This document shows, one piece after another, positions 42,317 through 54,294 of a stretch of 64,000 bases of DNA. Numbering within the stretch: position 1 is the stretch's first letter; each line of letters begins with the position of its first letter. The notes under the pieces were generated by a model, which was not told where the DNA came from, made no database searches, and saw only the letters and a program-made list of their open reading frames with translations. The position numbers and the translations under genes were made by a program. The DNA is from Thiobacillus denitrificans DSM 12475 (lineage in GTDB: Bacteria > Pseudomonadota > Gammaproteobacteria > Burkholderiales > Thiobacillaceae). Location: assembly GCF_000376425.1 (NCBI RefSeq), contig NZ_AQWL01000002.1:1-64000 (forward strand), read 5' to 3'.

Positions 42317-43868
42317 GCGCCTGATCACGCCTCAGCTCGGGCTGTTGCTGCTGTGTGCGGCCTGGCTGGTGCCGGGACTGGTGGGGCATGCGCCGTGGAA
42401 AGGCGGCGACGGCGATCATTTCGTCCGGCTGTGGCTGCTGCTGCAAAGCGGGACTGCGCCCCAGGCCGCCCCGGCTACGCCGCCCCTGTATTACTGGGTT
42501 GCCGCCGCAACCGCCTGGCTCACTTCGTCCGTCCTGGATTTGGCCGATGGCGCGCGCCTGGCTTCGGGCCTGTTCATCGCGCTGGCGCTGTTTTTTGTGG
42601 CACGCACGGCGCGCGTGCTCTACGGCGCCGAGACAGGCTGGGCGGCGGTGCTCATCTTGCTGGGTTGCGTGGGCCTGCTGGTGCGCGGCCATGAGCTCAA
42701 CGCCTATACCGCCCAGTTTGCCGCCGCTGCCGTGATGCTGTACGGCATTGCCAGCCTGCCGCAGAATGCCCGCAGCGGCTGGGTATTGGGGGGCGGCGCG
42801 GTCTTGATGCTGCTGGCCGGCGGCGCGGCGGAAGCCTTGCTGTTTCTGTTGCTGGCGGCATTGATGCCGCTGTTGCTGACGGAGTACCGCAGTCCGGCGA
42901 CGCGCCGTTCGCTGGCCTGGGGCGTGGGCGGCGCGCTGCTGTTCGGCGCAGCCTGGCTGGCCTTTCTGGCAACGCAGCATATTCCATTGATGCGCGCATT
43001 CAATCTGCAGCGCTGGCTGGGCAGCGACAGCCTGCGGCCGGGCTATTATCCCGGCATCCTCGGCTGGTACGCCTGGCCGGCATGGCCGCTGGCGGCGTGG
43101 GCGGTATACCGGGAACGGCGGCAATGGCGTACGCCGGGCATGGTGCTGCCAGTCGCGGCGCTGGCGGGCTTGCTCGGCCTGTACGCCCTGGCGGCCGATC
43201 CCGATGAGGAGCAAGGTCTTATCCTGCTGTTGCCGCTGGCGCTACTGGGTGCCGCCGGACTGTTCACGCTGCGGCGTGGCGCGGCCAACGCCTTGCTGTG
43301 GTTTGCGGTCATGCTGTTCGGCTTTATCGGACTGCTGTTCTGGATCTACTGGAGCGCGCACGATCTCGGCAGCCCGGCGCGGCTGGCCACGCGGCTCGGC
43401 AAGCTGGGGATGACCCATGTCGGCGAGTTGCGTCCATGGGCATTGGCGCTGGGCATTGCCGTCACCCTGGCCTGGATCGTCTTTCTGGCGCGCCTTCAGC
43501 GTTCGCCGCTGCGGCCCATGCTGGCATGGACCGCCGGCATGACCTTCATCTGGACGCTGTTGATGGCCTTGTTTCTGATGCCGCTCGACCGCCGCCTGAG
43601 TTATGTCGGCGTGGGCGAAGCGCTGGCTGCGCGGGTGCCGCAAACCGCCTGCGTCCAGACCTATCAGGTGCGCAGCCAGCAGCGTCTGCTGCTTGCCTAT
43701 CACAGCGGACGCCTGCTTGCCCCGGCCGATATCGGATGCGACTGGCTGCTGGTGGAAACCCGGCGCCGCGAGGCCGAGCCGCATGTCCCGGACGTCTGGG
43801 TCAAGCAGTGGGAAGGCGCGCGCCCCGGCGACCGTTCGGACCGCTTTCATCTGTATGTCCGCCGCTAG
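42306..43868 (+). CDS. ArnT/PMT-type membrane glycosyltransferase-like protein
   Basis: The 520-residue protein has about 11-12 hydrophobic helices. The loop after the first helix holds an acidic pair (APWKGGDGDHF), the region where GT-C glycosyltransferases keep the catalytic Asp. PPLYYWVAAA follows, as in ArnT-type enzymes (PPLYYW). These transfer sugars from polyprenyl-phosphate carriers at the periplasmic face. The start is a TTG at 42306, overlapping the protease gene. Acceptor and donor are unknown. Confidence 0.75.
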   Translation: MFNKRLITPQLGLLLLCAAWLVPGLVGHAPWKGGDGDHFVRLWLLLQSGTAPQAAPATPPLYYWVAAATAWLTSSVLDLADGARLASGLFIALALFFVARTARVLYGAETGWAAVLILLGCVGLLVRGHELNAYTAQFAAAAVMLYGIASLPQNARSGWVLGGGAVLMLLAGGAAEALLFLLLAALMPLLLTEYRSPATRRSLAWGVGGALLFGAAWLAFLATQHIPLMRAFNLQRWLGSDSLRPGYYPGILGWYAWPAWPLAAWAVYRERRQWRTPGMVLPVAALAGLLGLYALAADPDEEQGLILLLPLALLGAAGLFTLRRGAANALLWFAVMLFGFIGLLFWIYWSAHDLGSPARLATRLGKLGMTHVGELRPWALALGIAVTLAWIVFLARLQRSPLRPMLAWTAGMTFIWTLLMALFLMPLDRRLSYVGVGEALAARVPQTACVQTYQVRSQQRLLLAYHSGRLLAPADIGCDWLLVETRRREAEPHVPDVWVKQWEGARPGDRSDRFHLYVRR

Positions 43869-44442
43869 AGGACGGGGAACGGCGCGCGTGGCCGCCGTCA
43901 TTCTGGCGGGGGGGCAAGGCCGCCGCATGGGCGGAGCCGACAAGGGGCTGATCGAATACCGGGGACGCCCGCTGGTCGAATGGGCGCTCGCCACGCTCGC
44001 CCCGCAGGTCGACGCGCTCATGATCAGCGCTAATCGCAATGCCGGGCGTTACGCGGCTTATGGCCACCGCGTGCTGGCCGATACCCTGCCCGACTTTCCC
44101 GGCCCGCTGGCGGGCGTGCTGGCGGCGCTACAGGCGGTGGAGGCGGACTGGCTGGTGGTGGTGCCGTGCGATACGCCGCATCTGCCAGCCGATTTGGTGA
44201 TCCGCCTGCTGGGCGCGGCGCAGCTGGAAAGCGTGCCGCTGGCGGTGGCGGAAGACGGCGCGCGCGTGCACCACACCTGCTTCATCGTGCGCACCGATCA
44301 GCGCGCGAATCTGGCCGCGTTTCTCGCGCGTGGCGAGCGCGCGGTGCGTCACTGGCAGGCAGGACTGGCTTCGACGACAGTACGTTTCGACCCTGCCGGG
44401 TTCGCCAATTTCAACCAGCCCGACGATCTTCAGCCCGGCTAG
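43855..44442 (+). CDS. mobA: Molybdenum cofactor guanylyltransferase MobA
   Basis: The 195-residue enzyme attaches GMP to molybdopterin for DMSO-reductase-type enzymes. The nucleotide-binding signature is ILAGGQGRRMGGADKGL (residues about 16-32), with the metal-binding D in VVVPCDTPHL. The ATG at 43855 overlaps the preceding gene; an internal GTG (43888) is an alternative start. It converges 4 bases into the MBL gene. Its presence implies molybdoenzymes elsewhere in the genome. Confidence 0.93.
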   Translation: MSAARGRGTARVAAVILAGGQGRRMGGADKGLIEYRGRPLVEWALATLAPQVDALMISANRNAGRYAAYGHRVLADTLPDFPGPLAGVLAALQAVEADWLVVVPCDTPHLPADLVIRLLGAAQLESVPLAVAEDGARVHHTCFIVRTDQRANLAAFLARGERAVRHWQAGLASTTVRFDPAGFANFNQPDDLQPG

Positions 44443-45188
44443 CCTTGCCGGCTCTCGGCGATCTGCGCGCAATACTGTTGCAAATGCTCCGGCACGCCGG
44501 GCGGGCAGGTGCCGCAGTCGCGGTTGCCGGGAACGGCGTAGTCGATGAACTTGGGGTAGGCAAGCTGCAGTCCGTTCATCAGCGCAACGAAATCCTCCAG
44601 CGTGCGGTCGCCGCCGAGACGTGGATTGCGCGCCTTTTCCTGGCCGATGGTGCTGATCCGGCGCTGTTCGTAGTCGTGCGCCGGATAGACCAGGGTGTCG
44701 TCGTCGTAGGCAAACAGCTTGCCGCGCACCGAGTGGTACAGCGCGGCCGCATCGCCGCTCTGGAAGTCGGTGCGTCCGCAGGCTTCGATCAGCAGCGCGT
44801 CGCCGGTGTAGAGCCGGCCGGCGTGGGCGAAGGCGAAGTGGTTGTCGGTATGGCCGGGCGTGTGGATCGGCGTCAGTTCGATCGAGCCCATCTTGAACGG
44901 CGTGCCGTCTACGATGCCGATGTCGGTGCACGGCAGTGCATCGAGCGCGGGGCCGGCGATGCGGCTGCCGGCAATCGCTTTCAGCTTCTTCGCCGAAGTG
45001 ATGTGGTCGGCGTGGATGTGCGTCTCCACCGTGTAGGCAAGCTTCAGCCCCAGCTTGTCGATTTCACCGAGGTCGCGCTCCCAGGTCGGCAGCACCGGGT
45101 CGATCAGCAGCGCCTGGCCGGTTTCCTCGCAGCCGAGCAGATAGGTATAGGTGCTGGAAACGGATTCGAACAGTTGCTTGAAAATCAT
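44439..45188 (-). CDS. MBL-fold hydrolase, ETHE1-like persulfide (sulfur) dioxygenase
   Basis: The 249-residue enzyme has H57-I-H59-A-D61-H62, H113, D130 and H170, the metallo-beta-lactamase ligand set. The ETHE1 block GRTDFQSGD (138-146) typifies mononuclear iron glutathione-persulfide dioxygenases more than glyoxalase II. The predicted reaction oxidises glutathione persulfide to sulfite and glutathione. It is the last gene of the six-gene minus-strand run with glcDEF, 22 bases after glcF. If the operon is real, an alternative hydrolase role in C2 metabolism should be considered. Confidence 0.85.
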   Translation of the reverse strand: MIFKQLFESVSSTYTYLLGCEETGQALLIDPVLPTWERDLGEIDKLGLKLAYTVETHIHADHITSAKKLKAIAGSRIAGPALDALPCTDIGIVDGTPFKMGSIELTPIHTPGHTDNHFAFAHAGRLYTGDALLIEACGRTDFQSGDAAALYHSVRGKLFAYDDDTLVYPAHDYEQRRISTIGQEKARNPRLGGDRTLEDFVALMNGLQLAYPKFIDYAVPGNRDCGTCPPGVPEHLQQYCAQIAESRQG

Positions 45189-45210
45189 GGCGTGTCTCCT
45201 TGAGGGGTAT

Positions 45211-46440
45211 TCAGGATGCGGCCTGCGCCTCGTCCAGAAGTTCCACCCAGTGTTTTACCGGGATGCGGCTTCCCGATTGCAGATGCGTCAGGCAGCCGAT
45301 GTTGGCGGTGACGATTAGCTCGGGCTCCCCCGCCGTCAGATTACCGAGCTTGCGGGTTTTCAGCTGGCCTGCGATCTCGGGCTGCAGGATCGAGTACGTA
45401 CCGGCCGAGCCGCAGCAGAGGTGCTTTTCCGCGACCGGCGTGAGTTCGAAGCCGGCGTCGCTGAGCAGCGCTTCGACGCCGCCCGTGAGCTTCTGCCCAT
45501 GCTGCAGGGTGCACGGCGGATGGTAGGCGATGCGTTGCGACGCCGGCTTCGTGGCGAGATCCTTCAGTGCGTTGCGCTCGGCGCCGAGAATTTCCGAGAT
45601 GTCCTGTGTCGCGGCGGAGACGCGCGCGGCCTTTTCCGCATAGGCGGCGTCATGCCGCAGCAGCCAGCCGTAGTCCTTCACCATCACCCCGCAGCCGGAG
45701 GCGGTCATCACGATGGCTTCGACGCCCGTGTCGAGGTGCGGAATCCAGGCGTCGATGTTGCGCCGTGCGGCAGCGAGACCCGCGTCGGTGTCGTTGAGAT
45801 GGTGCGCCAGCGCGCCGCAGCAGCCGGCCTCGTTCGTGGCGACGAGCGAGATGCCGATGCGGTCGAGCACGCGCGCGGCGGCGGTGTTGATGTTGGGCTT
45901 GAGGCCGGGCTGCACGCAGCCTTGCAAGACCAGCATGCGGCGTTGATGGCGCGGTGCGGGCCACATGCCGGCGTGCTCGGCGGGCGGAATCCGCGCCTTC
46001 AGAAAACCCGGCATCAGGCCGCTCAGGCTCTGCCCGAGCCTGAGCGTGCTGTTGAACAGCAGGGAGGTGCCGAGGCCGGTCTTCAGCACCGCGCGCGTGG
46101 CGTTTTCGAGGGGGCTGCGGCCGACCTTCTCCTCGACGAGGTGGCGGCCGATGTCGAGCAGCTTGCCGTATTCCACGCCCGACGGGCAGGTGGTCTCGCA
46201 GTTGCGGCAGGTCAGGCAGCGGTCGAGATGGAGTTGGGTCTTCGCCGTCGGCGTCGCACCTTCGAGCACCTGCTTCATCAGGTAGATGCGGCCGCGCGGC
46301 GAATCGAGTTCGTTGCCGAGCACCTGGTAGGTGGGACAGGTGGCAAGGCAGAAGCCGCAATGCACGCAGCTGCGCAGAATGCGCTCGGCGACCTCGCCCT
46401 CGGGGGTGTTACGGAAGGAATCGGCGAGATGGGTCTGCAT
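45211..46440 (-). CDS. glcF: Glycolate oxidase iron-sulfur subunit GlcF
   Basis: The 409-residue protein has two 4Fe-4S motifs near the N-terminus (CVHCGFCLATCPTY; CLTCRNCETTCPSG) and CCG-type cysteine-rich domains in the C-terminal half (NEAGCCGALAHH; EKHLCCGSAG). It passes electrons from the flavin subunits to the respiratory chain. It starts one base after the end of glcE, so the three subunits are made together. Confidence 0.95.
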   Translation of the reverse strand: MQTHLADSFRNTPEGEVAERILRSCVHCGFCLATCPTYQVLGNELDSPRGRIYLMKQVLEGATPTAKTQLHLDRCLTCRNCETTCPSGVEYGKLLDIGRHLVEEKVGRSPLENATRAVLKTGLGTSLLFNSTLRLGQSLSGLMPGFLKARIPPAEHAGMWPAPRHQRRMLVLQGCVQPGLKPNINTAAARVLDRIGISLVATNEAGCCGALAHHLNDTDAGLAAARRNIDAWIPHLDTGVEAIVMTASGCGVMVKDYGWLLRHDAAYAEKAARVSAATQDISEILGAERNALKDLATKPASQRIAYHPPCTLQHGQKLTGGVEALLSDAGFELTPVAEKHLCCGSAGTYSILQPEIAGQLKTRKLGNLTAGEPELIVTANIGCLTHLQSGSRIPVKHWVELLDEAQAAS

Positions 46441-46441
46441 G

Positions 46442-47488
46442 TCAGAAATCGGGATGCATCCGGCCGCGGTTGAAGAGGCCCTTGGGATCGAAGCGCTGCT
46501 TGAGGGCGCGGTGCAGCGTCAGCATCGCCGGGGCGAGCGGGGTGAACACGCCGTCGGGCGGTGCGTCGCCGCGGAACAGGGTGGCGTGGCCGCCGGCGGT
46601 CTGCGCTGCCGCGCGCAGCGCGGCGGCGGGCCGCTCCGAGGCCAGCCAGCGCACCGCGCCGCCCCACTCGACCCACAGCGCGTCGCCCAGCTTCAGCGGC
46701 GGGGTGGTCGGCTTGACCGCCAGCCGCCACAGCGGACGCTTGTCGAAGAAGGGCGTGGCCTGGTCGCGCAGGCGCTGCCAGAACGCGGCGGCGTCATTCA
46801 GCGGATCGCCGCCGAGTTTGGCCTGTGCGGCGTGCACCGCGGAGGCCGCGCCCGACAGTCGCACGGTCAGCAGGCCGGCGTGCCATGAGCTCGCCGACAG
46901 CGGCAGCGGCTGGCCGGCCCACTGGTTCATTCGCAGAATCGCCGCGGCTTCGTCGAGTTCGAATTGCAGCGTGGTTTCCGTCGCCGGTTGCGGCAGCACC
47001 TTGAGCGAGATTTCGGTGATCAGGCCGAGCGTGCCGAGTGCGCCGACCATCAGGCGCGACACGTCGTAGCCGGCGACGTTCTTGATCACCTGGCCGCCGA
47101 AGCGCAGCGGCTGGCCGGTGCCGTCGATGATGCGCACGCCGAGCACGAAGTCGCGCGCAGCGCCGGCGTGAGGCCGGCGCGGGCCGGACAGCCCGGCGGC
47201 GATGCTGCCGCCGAGCGTGGCCGCTCCACCGAAGTGCGGTGGCTCGAACGCCAGCATCTGGTTCTGTTCGGCGAGCAGGGCCTCGATCTCGGTGAGCGGG
47301 GTGCCGGCGCGAGCGGTCAGCACCAGCTCCTTCGGCTGATAGTCGACGACGCCGGTGAGCGTGCGAGTGCTCAGGATTTCTCCTTCATCGGTGTTGCCAT
47401 AGAAGGCCTTGCTGCCCCCGCCCTGGAGGATGAGCGGGGTGCTTTCGGCGTGGGCTGCGCGGATGCGCTCGATGAAGACGTCGAGCAT
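46442..47488 (-). CDS. glcE: Glycolate oxidase FAD-binding subunit GlcE
   Basis: The 348-residue protein starts at ATG 47488 (MLDVFIERIRAA). FAD-binding type 4 features are visible: ILQGGGSKAFYG at the start, then LGGSIAAGLSGPRR and VIKNVAGYDVSRLM. It is shorter than GlcD and lacks its full C-terminal domain, as expected. Its ATG shares a base with the glcD stop, so the two are translationally coupled. Confidence 0.93.
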   Translation of the reverse strand: MLDVFIERIRAAHAESTPLILQGGGSKAFYGNTDEGEILSTRTLTGVVDYQPKELVLTARAGTPLTEIEALLAEQNQMLAFEPPHFGGAATLGGSIAAGLSGPRRPHAGAARDFVLGVRIIDGTGQPLRFGGQVIKNVAGYDVSRLMVGALGTLGLITEISLKVLPQPATETTLQFELDEAAAILRMNQWAGQPLPLSASSWHAGLLTVRLSGAASAVHAAQAKLGGDPLNDAAAFWQRLRDQATPFFDKRPLWRLAVKPTTPPLKLGDALWVEWGGAVRWLASERPAAALRAAAQTAGGHATLFRGDAPPDGVFTPLAPAMLTLHRALKQRFDPKGLFNRGRMHPDF

Positions 47489-48942
47489 CAGAACCTCGGC
47501 AGCTCGGGGTGCGGCAGCCGGCCGGCGTGGACGTGCATCGCGCCCCACTCGGCGCAGCGGTGCAGCTCGGGCACCGCCTTGCCGGGGTTGAGCAGGGTGT
47601 CGGGATCGAACGCCGCCTTCACCTCGTGGAAGCGGGTGAGCTCGGGGGGGGCGAACTGCGCGCACATCTGCCTGATTTTCTCCAGGCCGACGCCGTGCTC
47701 GCCGGTGATGGTGCCGCCGGCCTCGACGCACAGTTCGAGAATCCTGCCGCCGAAGTCTTCGGCCTTCTGCAATTCGCCCGCCTGGTTGGCGTCGAACAGG
47801 ATCAGCGGGTGCAGGTTGCCGTCGCCGGCGTGGAACACGTTGGCCACACGCAGGCCGAATTCATCGCTCATTTCGCTGATGCGTTTCAGCACGTGCGGCA
47901 GCTGCGCGCGCGGGATGGTGCCGTCCATGCAGTAGTAGTCGGGCGCAAGGCGGCCGACGGCAGGGAACGCGGCCTTGCGCCCGGCCCAGAATTTTAGGCG
48001 TTGCTCCTCGCTGTCGGCGGTGCGGATTTCGGTCGCGCCGGAGGCTTCGAGCACCTGGCGCACGGTGTAGATGTCGGCCGACACTTCCTCGTTGACGCCG
48101 TCGACCTCGCACAGCAGCAGCGCCTCGCAATCGAGCGGGTAGCCGGCGTGGACGAAGGCCTCGGCGGCCCTGATCGCAAGGCGGTCCATCATTTCCAGCC
48201 CGGCCGGAATCACCCCGGCGGCAATGATGTTGCCGACCGCCGCACCGGCCTTCGCCACGTCGTCGAAGGCCGCCAACACCACCTGCGCGCGTTCGGGGCG
48301 CGGCAGCAGCTTGACGGTGACCTCGGTGATCACCGCCAGCATCCCTTCCGATCCGGTCAACAGCGCCAGCAGGTCGTAGCCGGGGGCATCGAGCGCGTCG
48401 CTGCCGATTTCGAGCACGTCGCCCGCGATCGTCAGCGCGCGCAGCTTCATGATGTTGTGCACGGTGAGGCCGTATTTCAGGCAGTGCACGCCGCCCGAGT
48501 TCTCGGCGACGTTGCCGCCGATCGAGCAGGCGATCTGCGACGAGGGGTCGGGCGCGTAGTAGAGGCCGTGCGGCGCGACGGCCTCCGAGATCGCGAGGTT
48601 GCGCACGCCGGGCTCGACGACCGCGGTGCGGGCGAGCGGGTCGATGGCCTTGACGCGGTTGAGTTTCGCCAGCACCAGCAGCACCGCGCCGTCGACCGGC
48701 AAGGCGCCTGCGGCAAGGCCGGTGCCGGCGCCGCGTGCCACCACCGCGACCCGGTTTTCATGGCACAGCTGCAGCACCGCCGCCACCTGCGCCTCGTTCT
48801 CCGGCAACGCCACTACGTCGGGGACGTTGCGGTAGGCGGCGAGCCCGTCCGACTCGAAGGGCACGAGATCCTCGCGCTCGTTGAGGACGCAGTGTGCCGG
48901 CAGGACGCTGCGCAGCTTGGACAGGAAGGCGGGGCTCAGCAT
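47488..48942 (-). CDS. glcD: Glycolate oxidase FAD-linked subunit GlcD
   Basis: The 484-residue flavoprotein has an FAD-binding type 4 domain (VAVVARGAGTGLAAGALP; IGGNVAENSGGVHCLKYG) and a C-terminal FAD oxidase domain ending in GEHGVGLEKIRQM. With GlcE and GlcF it oxidises glycolate (or D-lactate) to the 2-oxo acid and feeds the quinone pool. In an autotroph the substrate is probably glycolate from RuBisCO oxygenation. The kinase gene lies 19 bases upstream. Confidence 0.95.
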   Translation of the reverse strand: MLSPAFLSKLRSVLPAHCVLNEREDLVPFESDGLAAYRNVPDVVALPENEAQVAAVLQLCHENRVAVVARGAGTGLAAGALPVDGAVLLVLAKLNRVKAIDPLARTAVVEPGVRNLAISEAVAPHGLYYAPDPSSQIACSIGGNVAENSGGVHCLKYGLTVHNIMKLRALTIAGDVLEIGSDALDAPGYDLLALLTGSEGMLAVITEVTVKLLPRPERAQVVLAAFDDVAKAGAAVGNIIAAGVIPAGLEMMDRLAIRAAEAFVHAGYPLDCEALLLCEVDGVNEEVSADIYTVRQVLEASGATEIRTADSEEQRLKFWAGRKAAFPAVGRLAPDYYCMDGTIPRAQLPHVLKRISEMSDEFGLRVANVFHAGDGNLHPLILFDANQAGELQKAEDFGGRILELCVEAGGTITGEHGVGLEKIRQMCAQFAPPELTRFHEVKAAFDPDTLLNPGKAVPELHRCAEWGAMHVHAGRLPHPELPRF

Positions 48943-48961
48943 GCGGGGGCGGGGCTAGGAT

Positions 48962-50296
48962 TCAGGTTGCGAGTTTAGCCGGGCTTGCCTGCGCGCGCGA
49001 GGGCGCCAGCCGCCGGTAGGCTTCTGCCAGCGCGCCGTCGCCGCCGACGTTGCCGGGGAAGATCACCACCGGCAGCTGCGGCAGGCGATGGTCGGCCGGC
49101 GTCTGCACCACGGTGACGCCGGGCAGGATCTGCCCCAGCACCCGCGAGGTGATGAGTTCGAGCCCGGTCGACAGCACGTCGTTGGAAGTGATGCCGCCCT
49201 TGCTGATGAGGAAACCCAGCGTCCCGGGCAGCCGCTTTACTACATCCATCAGCGTCGCGGACACCGCTTCGCCGAAGGCCAGGCGCTCGGCGATGCTGGC
49301 GAACTGCAGTTCGCTGCGGCTGGTGAACACCACCGGGGTCAGGCCCTTTGCATGGGCGTGGACGATGCTCGCGGTGAGTTCGTCTACCGCGGCGGCACGC
49401 CCGGCCGGCAAGCGGGTGACGTCGAGCGGCAGACCGACCACGCCGCGCTCTTTCAAGAGCTGCGTCAGCTGCGCCGTGGTTTTCGCCACGTGCGAGCCGA
49501 CCACGACCGCACCGGGCCGGCCGTCGCGCACCAGGCTGGCGAAGGCCTCGGCCGCCACCGGCTGCGATGGCAGCTTCGCCAGCGCGGTCAGCAGTGAGGC
49601 GGCGCTGCGGAACAAGAGGCGCTTGCCATCCGCCGCCGCCTTCAGCACGGCGTCGGCGAAGCTGCGGTAGTCGTCGGGCGATTCGCCGTCGACCACGCCG
49701 ATCGCGTTGTTTGCGAGCGACGCGAGCCAGATGCCCGCCTTGCCGGCGCGCAGGTCGGTCAGCGTGAGGCGCGCCACATCCTTCGCGGCGACGCGGCCGG
49801 CGGTCTTCTCGGCGACGTAGTCGGGCAGGAATGCAGTCGTGTAGCCGAACACCGAGTCGCGCGCGAACTCGGTCTCGTGCGTCGGTACTGGCGTGCCGTC
49901 GACGACGAGGTAGTGGGTGCTGTCGCGGGTGATGCGTCCGCCTTCGAAGAACGCCGGGGTGAGCAGCGTCGCGTCGAACGGTCCGAGCACCTCGTTCATC
50001 ACGTCGGTCTCCACCGGATAGTGGCCGCGTAGGGTCGAGTCGGAACGTGATACGAACAGCACCGGCCCGGCGTAGTCGGCCAGCGCCGCCTTGAGATTGA
50101 TGCACACCTCGCGGGTGATTTCAGCCGCGCGCGTTGCGTCCATGCCGCGCGTGTTGGTCAGAACGAAAAACAGCGGCGCGGCATCAGCCAGCGCCGTCTT
50201 CAGCGTGGCGACGTCCCAGCGCGTCAGCAGCAGGCAGGAATGCACGGTCTGCGATCCGGTGGGGTCGTCGTCGAGAACGATGATTTTCGGGTTCAT
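48962..50296 (-). CDS. Four-carbon acid sugar kinase family protein (DUF1537)
   Basis: The 444-residue protein has the DUF1537 N-terminal domain (IIVLDDDPTGSQTVHS; RSDSTLRGHYPVETDV) and the C-terminal nucleotide-binding domain (LGFLISKGGITSNDVLS). Characterised relatives phosphorylate D-threonate, D-erythronate or 3-oxo-tetronates. No dehydrogenase or decarboxylase partner of those pathways is beside it; the neighbours are a TPP enzyme and glycolate oxidase. The substrate is therefore open. It is 53 bases after the TPP gene and 19 before glcD. Confidence 0.88.
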   Translation of the reverse strand: MNPKIIVLDDDPTGSQTVHSCLLLTRWDVATLKTALADAAPLFFVLTNTRGMDATRAAEITREVCINLKAALADYAGPVLFVSRSDSTLRGHYPVETDVMNEVLGPFDATLLTPAFFEGGRITRDSTHYLVVDGTPVPTHETEFARDSVFGYTTAFLPDYVAEKTAGRVAAKDVARLTLTDLRAGKAGIWLASLANNAIGVVDGESPDDYRSFADAVLKAAADGKRLLFRSAASLLTALAKLPSQPVAAEAFASLVRDGRPGAVVVGSHVAKTTAQLTQLLKERGVVGLPLDVTRLPAGRAAAVDELTASIVHAHAKGLTPVVFTSRSELQFASIAERLAFGEAVSATLMDVVKRLPGTLGFLISKGGITSNDVLSTGLELITSRVLGQILPGVTVVQTPADHRLPQLPVVIFPGNVGGDGALAEAYRRLAPSRAQASPAKLAT

Positions 50297-50349
50297 GGTG
50301 TTGACCTTTCATGTCCGCGAATGCGCGGGCGCGCATTCGCGGAGAGCTT

Positions 50350-52575
50350 TCAAGCTACCGCCTGCTCCAGCATCGCCAGCGCCCGCTCGTGCATCGCCTG
50401 AGCGTTCATGCCGTTGAAGTCGAACAGCTGCTGCGGGTTGGCGGTGGTCTCGCCGCGCTTCCAGCAGAAGACGTCGCGCTCGCGTGCCTGGCTGCGCAGC
50501 AGCACCGGTTCGAGCGGCGCAGACGGCCCGCCGCTGACGCCGAGCAGCACGTCACCGTGGAACATGGCCTTGAAGGCGGCGTCATCCATGAAGCAGCCGT
50601 CGGGCTCGGACACGCTGTCCCACAGCACGTCGCCCGGACGATAGAGGCGGCGCGGGTTGACCACGGCGACGATGCGCGAGCCGATGCCGGCTTCGGCCAG
50701 CTTGTCGGCGGCGGCGAACACCGGTTGCAGCACCATGTCGCCGGTGACGGCGAACACGACGGTGTGCGAGCCCTTGGTTTCGCGCAGCACCATTGCGCCG
50801 TCGTCGATCGCCTGGCGGCTTTGCGCCATCGTCGCGTGGATCGGCAACGGTGACTTCGACGCAGTGATGACGATGCCCTTGTTGTGCTGCTTCAAGGCCC
50901 AGTCGTAGCTCGCCTGGATCATGTTGGCATCGACCGGGAACAGCGGGTAGACGTTGCCGTTGCGCATCATCGCGGCGAAGTAGCTTTCGATTTCGGGGCG
51001 CTGGTGGGTCCAGCCGTTGCGGCCCTGCTCGAGCGCGCCGGCGGTGAACAGGCACACCGTCGCCGGGGTCGGGCGGCGCAGCTCGGCCATCGCCTGCGTC
51101 ACCGTCTGCCAGATCGGCAGGCCGTTGATGGCGAAGGATTCGTAGCTGCACCACAGGCTGCGCCCGCCGAACAGCGCGATACCCACCGCGAGGCCGGCGC
51201 AGGCGTCCTCGTTGAGCGGCTCGTAGACCTGGCCGGACGGGCCCTGGAAGTAGAGGTCGTCGGCGGTCGGGTGGCGGATCGTCAGCGCCTTGTTGATGTT
51301 GGCCATGCCCGAGGCTTCGTTGCCGTCGGCGTTGGTGACGACGAACAGCGGATCGCGCTTGCCGACCTCGCCAACCACGTGGCCGAAGGCGGTGGTCGGG
51401 ATGTGGTTTTCGCCGACGGCGAATTCATTCAGCGGCAGGCCGTCGAGGCTAGGCAGATCGCGAACGCTCTCGGTCACCGCGACCTTTGCGGCGGGGCCGC
51501 CGCCGGCGTGACGGAAGTTTTCGCGCGTCACCTTCCACGCCTGGATCGGCAGCGCGCGGCGCTGCAGACCGCCCTTCACGTCGTCGGAGTCGAGCGTGTG
51601 GTGGGCGTAGAGGTTGTGCGACTTGGCGCCGGTGGCATGCACGCCGGCGCCCTTCAGCTGCTTGACGATGAGGCAGGCGCGGCGACCGGACAGCGCACTC
51701 CTGGCGGCAGCGTCGGCCGCCTTGAGGATGGCGCCGGTGAAGGCCATGCGCGCGGCGAAACCGAAGGTGGTGCTGTCCACATAGACCGGGGCGTCGTCCG
51801 TGTCGGCGAATTCGCGGGCGTCGACCAGATGGACTTCATCGAATCCATGCGCGCGCCAGTAGGCGGCCATGCGGCCGTTATCCCACAGCGACACCATGCT
51901 GTGATGCTCCTGTGAATAGCCGTTCCACACCAGCACCGGCAAGTAGTTGGTAACGTCTGGATACGCGGTGGCGAAATGCTGGAACGCGCTCATGATGTAG
52001 GGTTCGCCGAGGCCGCCGTCGCCGATGGTGACGGGAAACAGCTTGTCGCGGTGCAGGTAGGCGCCGGCCATGGCGAAATGCTGGCCCTGGCCCAGCGGGC
52101 CGGCGGGCGCCAGCAGGCCGGGGATCGCGCCCGACAGGTGACCCAGGAGGCCGTGGCGCTCGCGGAAGCGCGCGCGCATCTCGGCCACGCTGTGGATGCC
52201 CATGGCTTCCAGCGAGGTATCGAGAAACATCGCCGAATAGAAACCGGGTGCGTGGTGGCCCACCTCGGTCACCATGTTGCGGTGGCCCAGCAGATGCAGT
52301 GCGGCGACCGCATCGGCGCTGGAGGCGAAGCCGCCGGGATGGCCGGACGACTTGCTGCCGGTGACCTGCAGCGTCAGGTAGCGCAACGCGTCAGCGGCAA
52401 GCAGGGTCTGGTAGATGGACGCTTCGCTGGTGGCGTCGGGCAGCGCGGGCTGGCCGGGTCCGAGGAGCGGGGCGACCCCCAGACGCTCGATTTCCGGGAA
52501 ACCGTCGGCGAAATACTGGATGCCTTCGCAGAAGGCGGGCAGGGTCTCGGGGGCGGACTGCATCTGGGCGCTCAT
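50350..52575 (-). CDS. Transketolase-fold thiamine diphosphate enzyme (transketolase/phosphoketolase relative)
   Basis: The 741-residue protein starts at ATG 52575 ([12 protein letters not shown]) with AGGA upstream. The transketolase N-domain is visible ([20 protein letters not shown]). Next is the TPP-binding [20 protein letters not shown] with the closing [10 protein letters not shown]. Then come a pyrimidine-binding domain ([18 protein letters not shown]) and a C-terminal domain ([17 protein letters not shown]). It is neither a standard transketolase nor a canonical phosphoketolase; I recall relatives annotated as 'xylulose 5-phosphate 3-epimerase' without clear support. It leads the operon and is divergent from the IclR gene. 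Confidence 0.8.
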
Positions 52576-52601
52576 GGCACATCCTTTCACAATATGAAAT
52601 T

Positions 52602-52620
52602 GTTTCGCGCTATGCGAAAC
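52602..52620. promoter_or_regulatory. Candidate IclR-type operator in the divergent control region
   Basis: GTTTCGC and GCGAAAC are perfect inverted arms around GCTAT, between the IclR-family gene and the TPP gene, 27 bases before the latter's ATG. IclR regulators bind such short palindromes. A second, weaker inverted repeat (TCAC-ATCGC-GTGA) lies at 52656-52668 near the iclR-side start. Occupancy is inferred. Confidence 0.5.
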
Positions 52621-52682
52621 GATGGACGTATTGAAGCAGTAAACTGTCCATAATTTCACATCGCGTGATAAATTTTCACTTT

Positions 52683-53447
52683 ATGAAAAACGCCAGCTCC
52701 TCGATCCAGGTCCTCGACCGCGCCATGGCGCTGGTCGGCATTCTTTCCCGCGCACCCGGGCCGATCGGTCTGACCCGCCTCGCCGGCGAGGCCGGGCTGC
52801 ACACCGCCAGCGCACACCGCATCCTCGGCGCATTGATGGCGCACGGCCTGGTCGAAAAAACCGGTGCCGGCGAATACGATCTGGGCGTGCGCTGGTTGGA
52901 AGTGGGCAATCGCTTGCGCGCCCGGCTGAACATCCGTCAGGTGGCGATGCCATTCATGCAAAAACTTGCTGAACTGACCGGCGAGACAGTCAACCTGATC
53001 GTACGGCGCGGCGACGAGGCGGTCTATGTCGAGCGCGTATCGGGCGGCCAGACCCTGATCCAGGTGGTGCAGGTGGTCGGTGCGCATGCACCCCTGCACG
53101 TCACCGCAGTGGGCAAGATATTCCTTGCCGAGGACAGCGCCAGCGGCGTGATGGGCTATGCCGAGCGCACCGGCTTGCCGGCCTACACCACGAACACGCT
53201 GACTTCACTGGAGCGGCTCAGCGCCGAACTGGGCACGATCCGCCGCGAGCGCCTGGCCTACGATCGCGAGGAGGCCGAGCTGGGGGTGGCGTGCATCGGC
53301 GCGCCGATCCGCGATGCCGAAGGCAAGCTGATTGCCGGCTTGTCGATCTCGGCGCCGGCCGAGCGTCACAAGGCGGGCTGGGCCGAGGCGCTGCAACAGG
53401 CGGCGGCACAGACTGGCGCCGCGCTGGGTTATCTGGCTGAAGCCTGA
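52683..53447 (+). CDS. IclR-family transcriptional regulator
   Basis: The 254-residue protein starts at ATG 52683 (MKNASSSIQVLDRAMAL). It has an N-terminal winged helix (GLTRLAGEAGLHTASAHRIL, about residues 30-50) and a C-terminal IclR effector domain (VYVERVSGG; HVTAVGKIFLAED; GVACIGAPIRD). It is transcribed away from the TPP-kinase-glcDEF-MBL run and probably controls it. The effector may be glyoxylate, glycolate or a related acid, by analogy with IclR and AllR. A GTG at 52665 is a less likely start. Confidence 0.9.
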   Translation: MKNASSSIQVLDRAMALVGILSRAPGPIGLTRLAGEAGLHTASAHRILGALMAHGLVEKTGAGEYDLGVRWLEVGNRLRARLNIRQVAMPFMQKLAELTGETVNLIVRRGDEAVYVERVSGGQTLIQVVQVVGAHAPLHVTAVGKIFLAEDSASGVMGYAERTGLPAYTTNTLTSLERLSAELGTIRRERLAYDREEAELGVACIGAPIRDAEGKLIAGLSISAPAERHKAGWAEALQQAAAQTGAALGYLAEA

Positions 53448-53703: not shown

Positions 53704-54294
53704 ATGAACTCAAACCTGCGTATCGCCGGCATGGTCCTCATGCTGGCCTGCGGCATAAGCCCGGCTCAGGCCGCCTATATGGAATCGGGCGACGCCTCGA
53801 ATTTTCTCGCGGCGGCCCAAATGGCGACGGACGCGGTGATACAGGGCAACATCACTGAAGCCGATGAAGGCGATGTCTACAAGGTCGTGTTCGGAACCGG
53901 CGGCACCCTGTCGATCGGTACCGCCGGTTCGATCGACGCGCAGATCGGCCTGTTCGATGCGGGCTTCAATGCGCTGGCCGGGGATGACGATTCCGGTAGC
54001 GACCTCAACGCCTTCCTGAGCTACGCAATCAACGCCGGCACCTATTACATCGGCATTGGCGACTTCGCCATGCTTGCAATCAATACCGGCAACCAGGCGT
54101 GGCTCATGGACGGTCTGGCGCCCGCCGGCTTCGGCGCGGTGTCGTATATCGACAACCAGACCTCGATCATGACAGGCGACTACACGCTGTCGCTGTCCAT
54201 GCAGCCGCTCAACCCGGTGCCCGAACCCGCCAGCCTCGCCCTGCTTGGGGCCGGCCTGGCCGGCCTCGGCATGTTACGCCGCAAGGCAGGCTGA
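53704..54294 (+). CDS. PEP-CTERM sorting-signal secreted protein with pre-peptidase-like domain
   Basis: The 196-residue protein has a signal peptide (MNSNLRIAGMVLMLACGISPAQA) and a beta-rich domain. That domain resembles bacterial pre-peptidase C-terminal modules (DVYKVVFGTGGTLSIGTAG; AGTYYIGIG). The C-terminus is a PEP-CTERM signal: VPEP, the hydrophobic SLALLGAGLAGLGML, then RRK. The exosortase EpsH/XrtA system processes such tails, so that machinery should exist elsewhere in the genome. It is a lone gene with its own terminator. The 256 bases before it hold no ORF. Confidence 0.9.
   Translation: MNSNLRIAGMVLMLACGISPAQAAYMESGDASNFLAAAQMATDAVIQGNITEADEGDVYKVVFGTGGTLSIGTAGSIDAQIGLFDAGFNALAGDDDSGSDLNAFLSYAINAGTYYIGIGDFAMLAINTGNQAWLMDGLAPAGFGAVSYIDNQTSIMTGDYTLSLSMQPLNPVPEPASLALLGAGLAGLGMLRRKAG

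Follow-up and report, generated by a model that had tools for sequence, protein, structure and literature searches.

What do a thiamine pyrophosphate (TPP) enzyme of an uncharacterised family and a sugar-acid kinase do next to glycolate dehydrogenase? The question is raised by an operon on the minus strand of a 64-kb stretch of the Thiobacillus denitrificans DSM 12475 genome, hereafter the window. It comprises the TPP enzyme (50350..52575), a DUF1537 acid-sugar kinase of its own subfamily with SBD_N and NBD_C domains (48962..50296), the glycolate dehydrogenase subunits GlcD (47488..48942), GlcE (46442..47488) and GlcF (iron-sulfur subunit, 45211..46440), and a metallo-beta-lactamase (MBL) protein (44439..45188). 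As first described, these are six co-directional genes separated by 53 bases or less or overlapping, the successive spacings being 53, 19, -1 (a 1-base overlap), 1 and 22 bases. Our analysis indicates that the TPP enzyme and the kinase probably process the glyoxylate formed by GlcDEF in Calvin-cycle bacteria. The module gives a two-protein handle on glyoxylate disposal in chemolithoautotrophs without glyoxylate carboligase (Gcl) and malate synthase.

Conservation of the TPP enzyme and kinase pair

Gene order was compared in two sets of proteobacterial loci, a named collection (34 loci) and a class survey, which may overlap in species; the former represents the best 80 of at least 550 matches and is biased towards close relatives. 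Denominators are the loci whose contig extends far enough. The kinase gene was located directly downstream of the TPP gene in 33/33 loci of the collection (one of the 34 contigs ends early) and in 22/22 of the survey. GlcD adjoined in 29/32 and 12/21 loci, respectively, and a divergent iclR gene was present in 28/33 and 19/21. This arrangement recurs far beyond chance, and in Proteobacteria the pair is usually joined by GlcDEF and a divergent IclR. The closest relatives of the operon were found in Thiobacillus-type genomes, and a genome of another class (G602, locus L165) displayed the same gene order, GlcD included.

The two members of the pair are almost always encoded in the same genome. 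All 21 genomes of the class survey with the TPP enzyme encoded the kinase (partial at a contig end in G208). Among the 253 genomes without the TPP enzyme, a kinase of at least 54% identity occurred in two (61% in G233, and a 57% fragment in G170), and more remote relatives (40-42%) in G111 and G228 (Fisher test, 1.8e-29, kinship of genomes being ignored). The same was observed in cyanobacteria, where the TPP enzyme was detected in 70 of 194 sampled genomes and the kinase in 69 of these 70 (the exception being G443). The 124 other cyanobacterial genomes included three with a full-length kinase at 57-62% identity, one with short fragments at 53-61% (G459) and one with a 30% match (G478), which gives a Fisher value of 1e-47, again with kinship ignored. 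Likewise, the kinase was recovered in 40/40 genomes when it was queried for 40 of the 46 cyanobacterial loci (in pieces in G288 and G306). There the two genes are mostly unlinked, being adjacent in 2/43 loci. Since the kinase accompanies the TPP enzyme and is seldom found in the same form alone, the data suggest that it uses the product of that enzyme. The pairing fits an intermediate common to these two proteins only.

In a wider phylum sample the TPP enzyme was present in 3/299 genomes. In its tree the Proteobacteria clustered as a single clade (SH-aLRT 99), beside which Candidatus Cyanaurora, a cyanobacterium, branched (87, a weak value), and the kinase tree separated Proteobacteria from Cyanobacteria (100/100). 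The neighbourhoods of the cyanobacterial kinase and TPP genes (the latter inspected by eye for eight representatives) revealed no metabolic theme, except in loci L069, L070 and L109. In Cyanaurora (L070:12172-14073), the TPP and kinase genes are followed, with overlapping ends, by a HAD-IA hydrolase gene (DREG-2 family) that is truncated where the contig stops; its product is possibly a pathway phosphatase.

A mobile-element link was considered and rejected: viral contigs yielded no relative (41 pattern matches, none related), and 166 plasmid records contained no relative above 60% identity and none covering 80% of the query.

Association with glycolate oxidation and carbon fixation

Of the glycolate dehydrogenase subunits, GlcE (525.5 bits) and GlcF (667.1 bits) exceeded their NCBIfam cut-offs of 284 and 333, and GlcD remained under two of its own (818.7 against 897 for NF008408, and 541.8 against 567.9). 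RuBisCO (PF00016, whose weaker matches may be RuBisCO-like proteins) was detected in 20/21 survey genomes with the TPP enzyme, the exception being the 86% complete G033, versus 122/253 of the others. Gcl (TIGR01504) exceeded its cut-off in 0/21 and 4/253 genomes, respectively (Fisher p = 1), and the best match in the T. denitrificans genome reached 342.6 bits for a cut-off of 711.2. The absence of Gcl is no distinguishing mark of genomes with the TPP enzyme, yet T. denitrificans is without the usual enzyme. Malate synthase, counted only in genomes with the TPP enzyme, was found in 4/21, T. denitrificans not being one of them. For comparison, a published survey gives it for 63% of 1,890 genomes in a non-cyanobacterial RuBisCO group and for 2% of 536 cyanobacteria (PMC7486775). 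The original prediction of an uncharacterised phosphoglycolate or sugar-acid salvage route was thus strengthened on its phosphoglycolate side, by RuBisCO, GlcDEF, the effector-site residues of IclR (see below), the lack of Gcl above cut-off and the frequent lack of malate synthase.

Linked genes provided further glycolate-related context. A cyanobacterial locus (L069:6418-12538) displayed on one strand, in a row, genes for GlcE-like and GlcF-like proteins (149.7 and 331.5 bits, under the cut-offs of 284 and 333), for the TPP enzyme and lastly for a class I fructose-bisphosphate (FBP) aldolase (644.6 bits, above 327). Among 101 loci scanned, a malate synthase gene was close to the operon in L145 and L056, and a malic enzyme gene was linked in L160. 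In L145 (5933-8396) malate synthase comes straight after the kinase and precedes a cysteine-rich CCG-domain gene that appeared LutA-like by eye.

Family membership of the TPP enzyme and the kinase

The TPP enzyme constitutes a separate family with mixed signatures, nearest to phosphoketolase and then to transketolase. Its best scores with NCBIfam models were 89.6 bits for phosphoketolases (cut-off 777) and 49.8 bits for transketolases (cut-off 488). At the Pfam level, XFP (PF03894) was above its gathering threshold (42.8 against 22) and XFP_N (PF09364) just below (22.8 against 23.7); PF02779, a domain in common with transketolase, scored 36.2 for a cut-off of 27. The predicted structure, compared with VIA-align, gave the same ranking of folds, phosphoketolase before transketolase. 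Its first description as a non-canonical transketolase-fold enzyme is apt. No Gcl-type carboligase occurred among the 50 structural matches listed for the model, which has no bearing either way. Two motifs set the family apart. The N-terminal region has GPLGQG, as in transketolase, at the position of the phosphoketolase motif EGGELGY, and GRNGWTHQ(R), invariant in 102/102 aligned rows (101 distinct), replaces GEDGPTHQ of the transketolase of the same genome. The aspartate of the latter motif touches the C2 hydroxyl of the acceptor in transketolase; Arg-Asn, as found in the new family, would therefore suit an acceptor carboxylate. A separate phosphoketolase-like open reading frame (ORF) of 791 aa is present in the T. 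denitrificans genome.

Synechocystis sll0529 is a possible member of this family. One report calls it a putative second phosphoketolase whose activity is yet to be verified (PMC7744508), and another describes loss of the phosphoketolase pathway, without growth effect in that setting, upon double deletion of slr0453 and sll0529 (PMC9034593).

The kinase was well above the cut-offs of both of its Pfam domains (SBD_N, 178.1 bits against 25; NBD_C, 124.3 against 28.3), and its motifs DDPTGSQ and DSTLRG were invariant in 22 aligned rows. It stayed far under the D-threonate kinase model NF047819 (69.6 bits, cut-off 450), and its similarity to E. coli YgbK was not close (hhalign probability 93.7, 24% identity).

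Regulation

The IclR-family gene (52665..53447, plus strand) starts at GTG 52665 or, more likely, at ATG 52683; it is thus separated by 89 or 107 bases from the start of the TPP gene. Its product was closest to the BhcR model (NF045644), at 169.1 bits for a cut-off of 350. The four positions that bind glyoxylate in E. coli IclR (D212, C222, S239 and S241) were kept in 46/46 aligned rows (45 distinct).

The intergenic region between iclR and the TPP gene displayed a palindrome, TTTCR-N5-YGAAA, in 44 of 49 such regions, compared with 0.04 on average over 300 mononucleotide shuffles. The 49 regions are those left from 67 after removal of identical ones, and near relatives, chiefly Thiobacillus, are over-represented among them. 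The window carries two sites, both in this region, and no third match in 64 kb. The first, TTTCACAATATGAAA (52585..52599), precedes the start codon of the TPP gene by 9 bases and is a candidate IclR operator; the second, TTTCACTTTATGAAA (52674..52688), overlaps the iclR ATG, suggestive of autoregulation. The regulator would bind both palindromes, with glyoxylate or a related 2-oxo acid as its effector. The iclR gene facing the operon across about 100 bases and the inverted repeat in that gap, as originally described, are both present. That repeat (52599..52623; arms ATTGTTTCGC at 52599-52608 and GCGAAACGAT at 52614-52623, 5-base spacer) is not the conserved element: it sits between the two palindromes and differs from the pattern that recurs in relatives.

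Other occurrences of the palindrome were examined as pointers to further regulon members, and this idea was rejected, the sites outside the iclR-TPP region being mostly due to chance. The T. denitrificans genome has four matches, the other two being GC-rich and located elsewhere. Nine other genomes had 1-7 matches, versus 0-4 for a reversed control pattern, and the count was not clearly above this control in G081, G172, G021 and G602. G132 has seven matches in other places, and its iclR-TPP region is free of them. None of eight query proteins was encoded in the eight stretches inspected around additional sites; one such site was near a ribonucleotide reductase-like gene and another near unrelated genes.

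A proposed pathway and its alternatives

The route that we propose starts with glycolate derived from the 2-phosphoglycolate of RuBisCO and, in some relatives, perhaps also with imported glycolate. GlcDEF would oxidise it to glyoxylate, a step for which family membership argues strongly. The TPP enzyme would then move a C2 ketol unit from xylulose 5-phosphate (Xu5P) or fructose 6-phosphate to glyoxylate, releasing an aldose phosphate. The other product would be 3-oxotetronate, the substrate that RefSeq assigns, as putative, to the DUF1537 kinase YgbK; the kinase of the operon, judging from its family, would convert this acid to 3-oxotetronate 4-phosphate. Because the latter is a beta-keto acid, its decarboxylation would yield the enolate of dihydroxyacetone phosphate (DHAP), or proceed by Schiff-base chemistry, and thus lead to DHAP. 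The catalyst may be a linked, dedicated protein of an aldolase family or else perhaps the FBP aldolase of the cell. In sum, glyoxylate, Xu5P and ATP would be converted to glyceraldehyde 3-phosphate, DHAP, CO2 and ADP, with no need for NAD(P)H, for folate or for a donor of amino groups. The computed atom balance of this route closes. Relative to the glycerate pathway, it uses no NAD(P)H before refixation and costs three more ATP per two glycolate once the lost CO2 is refixed.

Aldolase genes linked to the pair bear on the last step. A gene of the class II ketose-bisphosphate aldolase family comes straight after the kinase in two genomes, in L102 (13625-14497) and in G263 (L149:6579-7419; ATGA overlap); the L102 protein remained under all equivalog cut-offs matched. 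A broken remnant of this subfamily persists in G132 (C1:1946697-1946921), and class II aldolase-like genes (34-36% identity to the L102 protein) lie directly behind iclR, on its strand, in L085 (8169-8891) and L155 (8547-9284). To these is added the class I aldolase gene that comes after the TPP gene in L069. These genes support DHAP as the product more than they support a role as decarboxylase.

Several observations weigh against the proposed route. A linked aldolase could simply condense the two triose phosphates and is therefore weak proof of a decarboxylase. A diverged DUF1537 kinase (38-49% identity) occurs in 15 of the 124 cyanobacterial genomes without the TPP enzyme, of 1.6-3.4 Mb (G348, G370, G395, G419, G426, G449, G451, G453, G473, G475, G477, G481, G487, G493 and G501), so the kinase family can serve alone. 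By sequence comparison, the kinase of the operon is remote from the DUF1537 members compared. A published enrichment study reports that few Calvin-cycle genomes outside the cyanobacteria encode glycolate oxidase, which was slightly depleted among them (PMC7895386). To these points must be added the reductase genes and the predicted fold considered next, each of which speaks for a different function of the TPP enzyme.

The operon might instead encode a glycerate pathway built from non-orthologous enzymes, in which the TPP enzyme would be a glyoxylate carboligase (two glyoxylate to tartronate semialdehyde and CO2), followed by a reductase, and the DUF1537 protein a glycerate kinase yielding 3-phosphoglycerate. 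The GlcDEF linkage and the absence of Gcl above cut-off from the 21 genomes would fit this scheme as well. A tartronate semialdehyde reductase gene near the operon is expected if the TPP enzyme makes that compound, the kinase then being a glycerate kinase, and one was indeed found in 6/101 loci from three lineages (L053, L056, L090, L096, L100 and, after GlcF, L148); with TIGR01505 (cut-off 340.75), L053 scored 376 and L090 336.5, just under. Hydroxypyruvate-reductase-like 2-hydroxyacid dehydrogenases are also encoded in L053 and L056, with a 37% relative in L164. Yet the remaining 95 loci, of which many are short or cyanobacterial, showed no such tartronate semialdehyde reductase; the known Gcl enzymes form part of a different branch of TPP enzymes; a glycerate kinase, being of general use, would hardly be expected to accompany the TPP enzyme almost without exception; and the linked aldolase genes are left unexplained. 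We regard this pathway, one of the two main rivals, as rather unlikely.

The nearest predicted fold would also be compatible with the other main rival, a divergent phosphoketolase that forms acetyl phosphate from Xu5P or fructose 6-phosphate, the kinase acting in an independent acid-sugar step. This is improbable, given the distance to every phosphoketolase cut-off, the GPLGQG motif in place of EGGELGY and the separate 791-aa phosphoketolase-like ORF of the genome, and it leaves the linkage to the kinase and GlcDEF unaccounted for. Less probable still is an operon that degrades a C4 acid taken up from outside, such as threonate or erythronate, with GlcDEF as a broad 2-hydroxyacid dehydrogenase. 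DUF1537 kinases do work in C4-acid catabolic pathways, according to PMC10971088, and genes for the TRAP transporter component DctP were present in 4/101 loci (L145, L148, L153 and L157), one further locus (L164) encoding a DctM relative. The operon of the window has no internal transporter gene, two of its subunits, GlcE and GlcF, score above the cut-offs for glycolate oxidase, and the pair is tied to RuBisCO-bearing genomes and cyanobacteria.

Glyoxylate salvage through 3-oxotetronate, the kinase and decarboxylation to DHAP is put forward tentatively, its chance as a complete scheme being somewhat below even; the precise reaction of the TPP enzyme is a little more doubtful. The broadest formulation, an undescribed phosphoglycolate salvage by glyoxylate ketolation, DUF1537 kinase and decarboxylation to DHAP, common to chemolithoautotrophs and many cyanobacteria, is slightly less likely again. 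If the ketolase step is true, the core reaction would itself be new. The whole would then represent a new natural photorespiration bypass, of use for engineering, that returns carbon at the triose-phosphate level without reductant or nitrogen.

The MBL protein and other neighbouring genes

The protein encoded last in the operon was correctly recognised as persulfide-dioxygenase-like, being an ETHE1-type homologue over most of its chain (residues 2-230 with human ETHE1 4chl, 7.4e-56). Its gene was found in 10/24 loci of the named collection and 0/14 of the survey. The six-gene regulon initially proposed is thus borne out in part: the order of the first five genes with IclR is widespread, and a conserved six-gene unit including the MBL gene was rejected, the complete order having been seen in Thiobacillus-type loci only. 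With this family membership and distribution no pathway role is needed, and the MBL protein is probably a lineage-specific extra. In one lineage, a glutathione S-transferase gene is inserted between GlcE and GlcF (L057:9329-10048, L067:16536-17195 and L144:10925-11584). This parallels the glutathione-linked ETHE1-type gene appended in Thiobacillus, perhaps by coincidence.

On either side of the locus, the window contains an ORF convergent with the MBL gene (43868-44442), judged by eye to be MobA-like (molybdenum cofactor guanylyltransferase-like), and an ORF downstream of iclR (53704-54294) with a C-terminal PEP-CTERM-like sorting motif (VPEPASLALLGAGLAGLGMLRRK), also recognised by eye. An ORF similar to the former is located beyond GlcF in L051.

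Comparison with known systems

Searches of the open-licence literature listed no paper that treats this TPP enzyme jointly with a DUF1537 kinase or as part of glycolate metabolism, which is a weak negative. A close physiological counterpart is Cupriavidus necator, a Calvin-cycle bacterium in which glycolate dehydrogenase likewise delivers glyoxylate, to a glycerate pathway (Gcl, tartronate semialdehyde reductase and glycerate kinase) or to a malate cycle (malate synthase), as described in PMC7486775. Genomes with the TPP enzyme differ in that Gcl was above cut-off in 0/21 and malate synthase was not found in 17/21.

The lower half of the proposed route resembles that of E. coli YgbK and YgbL (both putative in RefSeq), where a DUF1537 kinase is followed by a decarboxylase leading to DHAP and the same intermediate is proposed. 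The E. coli 3-oxotetronate-4-phosphate decarboxylase is a member of a class II aldolase family. In that system the acid arises from threonate oxidation, whereas here the TPP enzyme would make it; moreover, the operon has no YgbL-type gene and its kinase is only 24% identical. The upper half recalls the xylulose-monophosphate route of methanol-assimilating yeasts, in which dihydroxyacetone synthase transfers a ketol from Xu5P to formaldehyde and dihydroxyacetone kinase completes the path to DHAP. In both, a small aldehyde would accept the ketol unit of Xu5P, a kinase would follow and DHAP would be the end point; the proposed route would differ by its glyoxylate acceptor, another kinase family and the need for a decarboxylation. 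With regard to its components, the TPP enzyme is distinguished from phosphoketolases and transketolases by scores under all of their NCBIfam cut-offs and by its own invariant GRNGWTHQR motif. The regulator shares the IclR family and the four effector-site residues with BhcR, IclR and AllR and is found in a different operon.

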